Origin: Paragorgia papillata
Taxonomy: Eukaryota; Cnidaria; Anthozoa; Scleralcyonacea; Coralliidae
Direction of reading: 5' to 3'
DNA: 64,000 nucleotides
Assembly: GCA_035771165.1 (NCBI GenBank)
Contig: JAWNZC010000294.1
Location: 62,001-126,000 of the forward strand
Under the pieces are notes generated by a model. It ran no database searches, was not told the origin of the DNA, and saw nothing but the letters and a program-made list of their open reading frames with translations. Of this stretch, positions 41,297 through 62,301 are shown in pieces; the first letter of the stretch is position 1; each line of letters begins with the position of its first letter. The translations under genes were made by a program, and so were the position numbers.

Positions 41297-59847
<18,551 letters not shown>

Positions 59848-59989
59848 CTAAAATGAGTAAGAAAATAAGTAAAGCGCATAAGAAGTTTCTCAAATAGAAA
59901 TAATTTATGAAAAAAATTGACGAAGCGCGGCCAGGATTATACATAATGAAAAGACAAACGTTCTCTGACCAAATATTTAAATTTAATTC

Positions 59990-60188: not shown

Positions 60189-60650
60189 TCAAGACTCTAG
60201 TGTTCTCCTTGTCCTGTAGGTCCCCTTGTCAATGACTTTGCCACCTTCGAAGTCGATTCTATGGTCATTAGTCCACGCATGGTTTGCAATGTTTGAACCC
60301 GCTTTGTTTTGTTTAGCGTTTCTAATGTGTTCCTTTTTTCGTGTTTCAAAACATCTTCCGGTTTCGCCAATATAACTCCATTGACATTCTTTGCAATCAA
60401 TCTTATAAACAACATTAGTTTGTTTTTCGGAGTCAGGTCCTGTCTTTAGGTGACGGGAATTCTTGTTGGAGTGTTTTAACTGGTTTGTTGAAGACTTTGA
60501 TATCATACTTCCGCAAAACTCTAGTGAGCGTCTCAGTTAAAACTTTTATATATGGCAAAACAGCATAGTTGTTCGATGTTGTAGGCGGATCAACCAAGGC
60601 AAAAAATTCTCCGACCAATTCTTCCGGTGCTGGTATCTCTTCTTTAATCT
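60189..60650 (-). pseudogene. Penelope GIY-YIG nuclease fragment (frameshifted)
   Basis: Two minus-strand frames: LPYIKVLTETLTRVLRKYDI, KVFNKPVKTLQQEF (60618-60433), then KQTNVVYKIDCKECQWSYIG, ETGRCFETRKKEHIRNAK (60440-60189). The YKI..SYIG pair and the RCFETRKKEHIR helix are the GIY-YIG signature of Penelope-element endonucleases, which nick DNA for target-primed reverse transcription. The RT part is absent, a 5' truncation typical of retrotransposition. Confidence 0.8.
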
Positions 60651-61106
60651 TAAGATTAAGGGGTTCCTACTCAGGAGGATCAGGCAGATGCAATTTATGT
60701 TTGGAAGAGAAACTTTGTATCATGAAAGAAGACAAACACTTTTTACTCAATAAAAGATCAGAAATCATTTCGACATGCAGGCATAAAATTAAATTTAATA
60801 TCAACAATCTAAACAACAATCAAAACAAGGAAATGAGTTTGAGGAATCCACCGCCTACACGCCCACCTTTCGACCAAAACCATTTGAGGGATGCATTCAC
60901 TGTTTCACCACCCACACGCCCACCTTTCGACCAAAACCATTTGAGGGATGCATTCATTGTTTCACCGCCCACACGCCCACCTTTCGACCAAAACCATTTG
61001 AGGGATGCATTCATTGTTTCACCACCCACACGCCCACCTTTTGACCAAAACCATTTAAGCGGCCCACGAATCGAAACTACTCAGTCGCCTGAAGATCGCC
61101 CCGCGT
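60651..61106 (+). pseudogene. Penelope nuclease C-terminus with in-frame minisatellite
   Basis: Plus-strand frame RGSYSGGSGRCNLCLEEKLCI, HFLLNKRSEIISTCRHKIKF, then 3.7 copies of a 19-residue unit PPTRPPFDQNHLRDAFTVS, ending TQSPEDRPA and TGA. The CNLCLEEK and LLNKRSEIISTCRH blocks match the end of the 62301-61450 ORF. Only the part after the GIY-YIG fold remains. Confidence 0.75.
60849..61063. repeat. 57-bp coding minisatellite
   Basis: Unit containing CACGCCCACCTTTCGACC and TTGAGGGATGCATTCA, 57 bp (a multiple of 3), about 3.7 copies with only a few substitutions. It stays in frame with the Penelope ORF. Confidence 0.9.
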
Positions 61107-61124
61107 GAAACTGACAGTTGCGAC
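61084..61124 (+). ncRNA. Hammerhead-like motif a
   Basis: Stem I GTCGC (61084-61088)/GCGAC (61120-61124); core CTGAAGA (61089-61095); T; stem II CGC-CCC-GCG; T; GAA; stem III AC/GT with a 5-nt loop; cleavage position T61119. Core fits CUGANGA..GAA with a U.U where the first stem II pair is usually G-C. It overlaps the end of the plus-strand ORF, supplying its stop codon. Confidence 0.65.
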
Positions 61125-61224
61125 ACTCAACATTTTGAGGTAAGCCCACTTAAACTATACTATATTCGCTCTACCTTTATGGTATTGAGCACTTTCCGAC
61201 ATTCCGTGAACAAATTCACACCTG

Positions 61225-61257
61225 CTCGTTTGTATATATATATATATATATATATAT
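61225..61257. repeat. TA microsatellite
   Basis: (TA)n run just before hammerhead-like motif b, a common junction for these elements. Confidence 0.85.
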
Positions 61258-61260
61258 CAG

Positions 61261-61301
61261 TCGCCTGATGATCCCGTTTAGGGTGAAACCTCTGGTAGCG
61301 A
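61261..61301 (+). ncRNA. Hammerhead-like motif b
   Basis: Stem I TCGC (61261-61264)/GCGA (61298-61301); core CTGATGA (61265-61271); T; stem II CCC-GTTTA-GGG; T; GAA; stem III AC/GT with 5-nt loop; cleavage position A61297. No ORF upstream: a solo tail. The following about 110 bp matches the sequence after motif a (TATGGTATTGAGCACT in both). Confidence 0.65.
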
Positions 61302-61397
61302 AGACTTTAAGGTAAAACTATACTTCATACTTTGTATTTTGCTCTATCTATATATGGTATTGAGCACTCTCTAACATTTCGTGAACCAAAACTCACT

Positions 61398-61415
61398 TAT
61401 ATATATATATATATA
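61398..61415. repeat. TA microsatellite
   Basis: Short (TA)n run between motif b's tail and the minus-strand element ending at motif c. Confidence 0.8.
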
Positions 61416-61433
61416 GGTTAAATGAAGGAGTTT

Positions 61434-61477
61434 GTTACTACTCGGAGTTTCACGTTGTTACACGATCATCAGGCAAC
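61434..61477 (-). ncRNA. Hammerhead-like motif c
   Basis: Minus strand: stem I GTTGC/GTAAC (one G.T pair); core CTGATGA; T; stem II CGT-GTAACA-ACG; T; GAA; stem III AC/GT with 5-nt loop; cleavage position A61439. It overlaps the end of the 62301-61450 ORF; its T-GA after stem II is the stop codon. Confidence 0.65.
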
Positions 61478-62301
61478 TGAGTATGATCTGCTTCTCTTGT
61501 GGTGACATGACTCTGCTTGGAGGTGTTGATTGGGAGGGAGGTTGATTGGCGACGTATCACATTTTTCTTTCGGCATAAGTTCTTGGCATAAAATTTGTTT
61601 TCATGACGGCATTTTGAGACGATTTCTGCTCTTTTGTTCAGTAGGTTTTCATTATTGGCTTTCAAAATCTGTAATTTCTCTTCGAGGCAAAGCTTGCATC
61701 GGGTTGATCCGGCGGTGTACGGGGTGGCGCGTTTCAGTATAGACCAGGTGATAACAGGGTGATTGTCATTTCCCTTTAGTTGCCAAACGTATTTTGAAAG
61801 TTCTGTTTCGTTGGAATATCTTCGGTCATTAAAAGATTTCTGGTGGTTATTGTATCGCAACTTAAAACTGTTCGATGTCATCCCTATATACCGTTTTGTG
61901 GTCGGCTTACCGGCGCTTGTAACTTCGGCTTGGTAGATGACACATGCTGCCAAGCAGTTACCTTTCAACGGGCATTCGGTTTTCTTTCTACAGTTACATT
62001 TAACATCGTTGGATTCGGGGATGGGGTTCATTATGCATGATACGACTCGGGAATTATGTTTGGAGATGGCGCTCTTAACGCTATTCATGCAACTATAACT
62101 GACTTTTACATTGTTTCGGTTGAATATCTTGCCAAGTTTCGATGACAAGAAATGGCGGTCGATAAGATTCAAAAATTTGCGTCCAACATTGGTTTTGACA
62201 CTTTTACTAAACGGTGGCTTGAACCATATGATATTTCTCTTCCGATTCTTGTTTGGTACCTCTACCTCTAGGTATTGAGCACTCTGTCTCACCGCAGACA
62301 T
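61450..62301 (-). CDS. Penelope-type GIY-YIG nuclease fragment, open frame
   Basis: 283 intact codons. Upstream part KRNIIWFKPPFSKSVKTNVG, KFLNLIDRHFL, IFNRNNVKVSYSCMNSVKSA; a zinc-binding stretch CNCRKKTECPLKGNC; the GIY-YIG fold VIYQAEV..RYIGMTSNSFKLRYNNH; then NETELSKYVWQL, CKLCLEEKLQIL, LLNKRAEIVSKCRHENKFY and the tail TQLPDDRVTT. The nuclease would nick target DNA. RT is absent upstream, so this is a 5'-truncated insertion; ATG at 62301 may be incidental. The frame is unbroken, hence fairly young. Confidence 0.82.
   Translation of the reverse strand: MSAVRQSAQYLEVEVPNKNRKRNIIWFKPPFSKSVKTNVGRKFLNLIDRHFLSSKLGKIFNRNNVKVSYSCMNSVKSAISKHNSRVVSCIMNPIPESNDVKCNCRKKTECPLKGNCLAACVIYQAEVTSAGKPTTKRYIGMTSNSFKLRYNNHQKSFNDRRYSNETELSKYVWQLKGNDNHPVITWSILKRATPYTAGSTRCKLCLEEKLQILKANNENLLNKRAEIVSKCRHENKFYAKNLCRKKNVIRRQSTSLPINTSKQSHVTTREADHTQLPDDRVTT

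Follow-up and report, generated by a model that had tools for sequence, protein, structure and literature searches.

Minimal type I hammerhead motifs with a U.U mispair in predicted Penelope-like elements of Paragorgia papillata

Features of the locus

The window (the whole stretch of Paragorgia papillata DNA that was analysed, 64 kb) contains three hammerhead motifs at positions 61084-61477, two on the plus strand and one on the minus strand. The first-pass annotation had placed three motifs with a shared core at these positions, and direct reading and a structural scan both bear this out; the minus-strand location of the third motif is absent from that annotation, the coordinates of which nevertheless agree with it. 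The features of the locus, with the type of evidence in parentheses, are as follows.

60569..61108, plus strand: predicted C-terminal frame of a Penelope-like element (PLE), 179 aa, apparently 5'-truncated (open frame, homologue match)
61084..61124, plus strand: minimal type I hammerhead motif 1 (direct reading, structural scan, palindrome test)
61178..61415, plus strand: two direct copies of the terminal PLE unit, the pseudo-LTR tail (repeat comparison)
61233..61257, plus strand: (TA)n tract, 3' end of unit 1 (direct reading, repeat analysis)
61260..61302, plus strand: minimal type I hammerhead motif 2, CCC-GUUUA-GGG family (direct reading, structural scan)
61434..61477, minus strand: minimal type I hammerhead motif 3 (direct reading, structural scan, palindrome test)
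61450..62301, minus strand: predicted C-terminal (GIY-YIG side) PLE frame, 283 aa (homologues, motifs by eye)

The minus frame ends with TQLPDDRVTT, and its stop codon UGA (61452-61450) coincides with U11.1-G12-A13 of motif 3. A search with this frame identifies 758 homologues at E <=0.001, with a best identity of 77% among the 120 listed. Its cysteine pattern and the YIGMT and SKCRH motifs, read by eye, correspond to those of the GIY-YIG side of PLEs. The plus frame ends with TQSPEDRPA, its UGA (61106-61108) coincides with the same three core positions of motif 1, and it matches the PLE homologue P0142 (54% over 78 aa). In a Pfam run on four frames of the window, the two PLE frames at the motifs have no match at E 0.1, so that the PLE label rests on homologues, motifs read by eye and general features of the family.

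The copies of the terminal PLE unit (61178-61240 and 61353-61415) are 75% identical, lie 175 nt apart and both run into TA repeats; unit 2 begins right after the (TA)n tract at TCAGTCGC, the ribozyme 5' edge. Terminal repeats of the kind found in PLEs are thus represented by the final codons of two converging frames, which overlap motifs 1 and 3, by the direct repeat of the unit, in which motif 2 sits, and by successive frames in a related copy, L154. In the latter, a single frame contains an RT motif (YRDDG) and the GIY-YIG side, both recognised by eye, and ends with FQSPDDPV inside the ribozyme; the next frame starts ~190 nt after the stop codon. Accordingly, RT, a C-terminal GIY-YIG domain and tandem copies, the hallmarks of PLEs, are all found in L154. 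The opposed frames in the window, together with L154, point to two PLE copies arranged tail to tail, each represented by its C-terminal part only, the plus-strand copy carrying one extra terminal unit. Judging by this context, all three motifs appear to belong to PLEs; the first-pass annotation, which recognised the hammerhead folds and the kept pairing, did not notice that the motifs lie in PLEs or that they overlap reading frames.

A search with a PLE alignment (A2) detects no relatives among 119 stretches of viral contigs and two, L121 and L122, among 66 stretches of genome contigs; both are presumably animal DNA inside microbial assemblies. L121 ends within an apparent (by eye) G10.1 hammerhead. 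In L122, a GIY-YIG frame is followed by a U.U hammerhead and then by the next frame, the same order as in L154.

Several other features were observed in the window. A 57-bp minisatellite (3.6 copies, 60849-61056, plus strand) lies in frame within the C-terminal part of the plus PLE frame. An adjoining minus-strand frame (60189-60506) has a weak GIY-YIG match (E 0.014) under the curated cut-off, the minus-strand frame 59501-59944 contains a strong SRCR domain (Pfam, E 9.1e-33), and the 757-aa frame 53553-55826 (plus strand) consists mainly of trinucleotide repeats. A 44-nt type I hammerhead with the canonical G10.1-C11.1 pair and a palindromic CGCG stem III occurs in three identical copies, at 44725 (minus), 51378 (plus) and 57221 (minus), in a repeat family 88-98% alike; the copy at 51378 scores 28.4 bits with Rfam Hammerhead_1, below the threshold of 34. 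Two minus-strand frames upstream of the copy at 44725 (46115-46759 and 48759-49742) resemble, by eye, pieces of another PLE reverse transcriptase. In the genome, a G-C hammerhead, CTGATGAGCTGTTGTACAGCGAAACACCGTGTC, often occurs in retrozyme-like tandem arrays of ~277 bp (e.g., C1:417862-431273, L151, L156 and L178), and the first 100 G-C matches listed all belong to its core family. These 277-bp repeats fit a non-LTR retrozyme (short non-coding tandem repeats) better than the U.U motifs of the window do; for the latter this assignment was rejected, given the PLE frames next to motifs 1 and 3.

Structure of the three motifs

In motif 1, stem I is formed by 61084-61088 and 61120-61124 (GUCGC/GCGAC) and encloses CUGAAGA from 61089, stem II CGC/GCG, GAAAC, 5 nt, GU and the H base U61119; the mispair at 10.1/11.1 is U61096.U61106, and the predicted cleavage site is after U61119. 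Motif 2 combines stem I UCGC/GCGA, C3 at 61265, stem II CCC/GGG and a U.U pair with the H base A61297, after which cleavage is predicted. Motif 3 has stem I GUUGC/GUAAC with one G.U pair, C3 at 61472, stem II CGU/ACG, the mispair U61465.U61452 and the H base A61439, which precedes its predicted cleavage site. The stem I and stem II pairings claimed in the first-pass annotation were recovered by direct reading and the structural scan, as was U.U at 10.1/11.1 in all three motifs. Each motif contains the type I core (CUGANGA ... GAAA, A15.1-U16.1 and H at the cut) and three helices, the RNA ends lying in stem I (stem I of 4-5 bp, stem II of 3 bp, stem III of 3 bp or a palindrome); the canonical G10.1-C11.1 pair is replaced by U.U in 3 of 3.

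The structural scan, which called for the core, a stem II of at least 2 bp, a stem I of at least 4 bp and any bases at 10.1/11.1, returns six motifs in the 64-kb window, namely, the three U.U motifs and, in other parts of it, the three identical copies of the G-C motif. Shuffling the window 300 times with a first-order Markov model yields one match in total. A custom covariance model (R1) gives motifs 1, 2 and 3 scores of 60.8, 55.6 and 59.6 bits, respectively, all three being in its training set. The covariance search of the hammerhead families that the first-pass annotation had suggested came out negative: Rfam detects no hammerhead at any of the three motif positions at the gathering threshold or even at E 10. 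This miss says little because six G-C tandem repeats (L151, L156) drew only one weak match (HH9, 24.2 bits, E 0.027). None of the minimum-energy folds of the three isolated motifs is a hammerhead; among four sequences tried, only L122 folds into one, as a dimer.

Genome-wide copies and covariation

A search of the 617.9-Mb genome, in which repeat counts are lower bounds, identifies at least 5095 matches to the U.U pattern against one for the reversed pattern, at least 5559 to the G-C pattern (8 reversed), and at least 11158 to a pattern with any bases at 10.1/11.1 (138 reversed). The core of motif 2 (CCC-GUUUA-GGG) is the commonest one among the first 100 U.U matches listed. A stem II that begins with a base other than C gives 184 matches, compared to one in the control; further types, such as UGC/GCA and UGCC/GGCA, are present among the 100 listed, many of which resemble single mutations of the common families.

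Covariation was assessed on 29 distinct sequences with flanks, 28 from this genome and one from L122, which combine loci picked for variety with automatic loci and are not a random sample. In this set, 87.1% of the cells are paired, 9 of 12 pairs change on both sides (a value reached by 3 of 500 shuffles), and there are 43 double-change cells compared to a shuffled mean of 15.4. The covariation score of 0.353 exceeds that of the shuffles (0.156 +/- 0.017; reached by 0 of 500); kinship among the sequences inflates such scores, and a slid-partner control with equal kinship gives 0.085 at most. For 18 sequences chosen from the 29 (alignment A3), the fraction paired is 92.1% and the score 0.389; the 11 left out comprise seven with an altered or fold-back 5' strand, two with a broken stem II, one near-duplicate and one with an insertion. 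The values for the full set are lower and still clear. A MAFFT alignment of the three whole units was poor and was left unused. Compensatory changes are found in stems I, II and III, in support of the first-pass claim of a hammerhead-type fold in which pairing is kept as the sequence varies; the outcome that was to count against that claim, genome-wide copies devoid of compensatory changes, did not occur.

Pairing could also be inherited from active ancestors by decayed, non-functional relics. Many copies share one core, some of them with a broken stem I or stem II (e.g., GCA against CGC in L157 and L158, and CAC in L166 and L176), and the plus frame of the window is short and contains a minisatellite, all of which is compatible with decay; however, all core bases and both stems are intact in the three window copies, and the covariation spans several families. 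We consider this explanation unlikely; even where it applied to single copies, their identity would be unchanged.

Reading frames that stop inside the ribozyme

Overlap with reading frames was examined in 126 U.U matches, 80 of which remain after removal of those alike over the surrounding 100 nt. In ten of these 80 distinct-context hammerheads, the frame CCU-GAN-GAU is open for at least 90 codons upstream. Each of the ten upstream frames matches PLE homologues (the weakest is L191, 58% over 36 aa), and each stops within the ribozyme, five with UGA at U11.1-G12-A13 and five in stem or loop II; these are not ten independent cases because only three core families are involved. L203 has a PLE-like frame of 135 codons that reads into the ribozyme in a different register, and a 122-codon off-frame reading in L199 has no PLE match. 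Among the long PLE frames seen in this genome, such overlap is usual, but it is not general. PLE frames that stop inside the ribozyme are possibly a new point.

Such overlap, seen in ten contexts with long upstream frames, would also be expected if the motif were kept as coding sequence (PDDR or PEDR codons plus stop) and not as a ribozyme. Protein traces of the motif are present in P0001 and P0002 and perhaps in P0149 and P0171, the latter two of which, from codons read off the protein, may represent read-through of a U11.1 hammerhead; yet a clear PDDR tail is found in only 2 of 204 fetched homologues (P0001 and P0002). Moreover, compensatory changes are also seen in stem III and in the 3' strand of stem I, both located 3' of the stop, so that covariation persists outside the coding part; units without a long upstream frame exist (e.g., that of window motif 2), and the frame of L122 ends ~125 nt before the ribozyme. 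Conservation as coding sequence is therefore very improbable.

The U.U pair

The first-pass annotation proposed that the U.U pair may denote an undescribed variant, and this part of its reading is refuted. Perreault et al. 2011 (PMC3088659) report a U10.1-U11.1 hammerhead mismatch, identical to the present one in kind and place, as a natural exception that supports cleavage and had been biochemically tested before 2011; there, it is a surprising exception, whereas here it has thousands of matches in one genome. A 2020 paper (PMC7229834) notes that helix II of the axolotl ribozyme HHR_Amex2 has a U U mismatch at its base.

The pattern U.U plus CGC/GCG has 29 matches, several of them near copies of one another, in 28 viral stretches (IMG/VR contigs, L123-L150), and 27 of the 29 complete a type I or type III hammerhead (GUH, stems I and III) as opposed to 11 of 580 with shuffled flanks. 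In L137, two viral U.U hammerheads are located 518 nt apart. With an unpaired consensus, which hits at least 120 viral stretches, 0 of 120 matches have stems II and I both of at least 3 bp; this set is therefore attributed to chance. The same U.U build is found behind the PLE frame of L122, a contig from a Solemya (bivalve) symbiont assembly. From the two papers, the viral contigs and the Solemya symbiont contig, it follows that the U.U variant is known and widespread. The idea that a coding requirement fixes U.U was dropped because L122 and the viral hammerheads also carry it.

U.U and G-C together account for 10654 of the 11158 any-base matches, and U.U looks fixed in the PLE families, given that every one of the first 100 any-base matches listed is either U.U or of one G-C core family; still, with U.U in print since 2011, present in the axolotl and embedded in complete viral hammerheads, a new structural class defined by an obligate U.U pair is scarcely credible. 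The U.U pair is best regarded as a tolerated, already described mispair that is the rule in the PLE families seen in this genome.

Stem III and dimer formation

The first-pass annotation described the segment between GAAAC and GU as a 5-nt loop. The length is correct; the unpaired state is not required, given that the outer bases can pair, so that in the monomer stem III has 3 bp and closes a loop of 3 nt. In a dimer, pairing could extend over the 9 nt from A15.1 to U16.1, which form a palindrome whose central base stays free. All four palindrome pairs are present in motif 1 (ACUGACAGU, palindromic around A) and motif 3 (ACUCCGAGU, palindromic around C), and three of four in motif 2; the segment of L122, ACGGGCCGU, is likewise a palindrome with a free central base, and the segment ACCUCUGGU is one except for one mismatch. 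Pairing of the two plus-strand copies with each other is poorer than among like copies.

The innermost pair of stem III, beside the central base, can be formed by the dimer only, because the monomer would need a 1-nt loop. This pair is present in 24 of the 29 sequences (C-G in 12, G-C in 11, U-A in one; unpaired in five), and it covaries. PMC7761336 and PMC3088659 both indicate that such ribozymes may act as dimers, and PMC7229834 reports for the HHR_Amex2 repeat 22% cleavage in one hour as a monomer and better cleavage as a dimer. The reduced palindromic stem III appears to fit the minimal type I hammerheads of PLEs, which are reported to cleave as dimers.

Head-to-head ribozyme pairs

Among the first 100 U.U matches listed, there are 18 neighbouring pairs within 250 nt, 14 of which are head to head, three in tandem and one tail to tail. 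The head-to-head pairs are arranged around stem I, with a centre of 4 nt in 6 of the 14. A genome search for the palindrome ATCNTCAGNNNNCTGANGAT gives 607 matches (control, 0), which is an upper bound for head-to-head junctions because one PLE family contains it in its normal frame tail. Fifteen places were read (17 rows, L186 and L187 showing the same two): six contain two complete ribozymes, four are the ordinary frame tail of the family in question (L189, L190, L191 and L193, with IENLQPPED), and five are partial or unclear. The ungapped arms agree over 67-73 nt in 5 of the 15, after which the shorter arm enters TA-rich DNA; in the remaining places they extend over 8-42 nt, a longer arm in L181 being masked by a 1-nt indel. 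In L189, L191 and L193, a 20-nt palindrome lies in the frame tail at the ribozyme 5' edge. Examples of head-to-head pairs in which the centre is 4 nt long and the arms differ in length are L180, L182, L183 and L185. The sequence TCAG-N4-CTGA, which is able to fold, is present in many ordinary copies.

The unequal-arm pairs perhaps stem from fold-back priming during PLE insertion, and the head-to-head junctions may be a new point. A more elaborate proposal assigns several roles to the ribozyme core jointly. It would close the frame, by UGA at U11.1-G12-A13 or by a stop in loop II, and would cleave only as a dimer joined via a palindromic stem III; at its 5' edge, TCAG-N4-CTGA would enable the first cDNA strand to fold onto itself and to prime synthesis of the second, and self-priming at this hairpin would leave head-to-head ribozyme pairs at insertions. 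As a whole, this proposal is doubtful.

Proposed role and relation to known systems

Taken together, the observations most probably, and with high confidence on our part, indicate minimal type I hammerheads of PLEs, two at the 3' ends and one in an extra unit, which would cut tandem transcripts and tolerate the U.U mispair. The position, fold, covariation, copy number, PLE context and frame overlap of the motifs come directly from computation. From these we infer cleavage, dimer formation, processing of tandem transcripts and any role in transposition. When tandem PLE units are transcribed into one RNA, the ribozymes would cut it after GUA or GUU, mostly as dimers joined via the palindromic stem III, and would release unit-length RNAs still carrying the complete reading frame, because the stop codon sits just 5' of the cut. 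Several points weigh against this explanation, namely, the negative Rfam search, the non-hammerhead minimum-energy folds, the 3/4 palindrome of motif 2, the copies with broken stems and the data on a PLE of Anolis.

Neither the type of ribozyme nor the type of host element is new, and the supposed novelty, the U.U pair, has been published before. Minimal type I hammerheads of PLEs have reportedly been described by Cervera and de la Pena in 2014 and by Lunse, Weinberg and Breaker in 2017. The present motifs have in common with them the type I order, a very short stem III, tandem pseudo-LTR copies and a palindromic stem III suited to dimers; the differences are that here U.U is the rule and that the PLE frame ends inside the ribozyme.

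HHR_Amex2 has the same type I order, short stem III and U U at the helix II base but, according to PMC7229834, is found in 350-bp tandem repeats called retrozymes, in contrast to the position at a PLE frame end seen here. The PAc hammerhead of the Anolis PLE (PMC11167929) overlaps a reading frame, as do the present ones; the Anolis frame has its start within the ribozyme, where stem II begins, whereas here it is the end of the frame that lies in the ribozyme. The same paper reports that the Anolis hammerhead does not cleave when the PLE protein is absent, that insertion is unaffected by hammerhead mutants and that no reads end at the cut.

Thus, thousands of U.U hammerhead matches are placed in one animal genome, and covariation shows that the fold is kept, including a pair exclusive to the dimer. 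These copies provide natural material for testing what purpose the ribozymes of PLEs serve and how tandem and inverted PLE copies originate.
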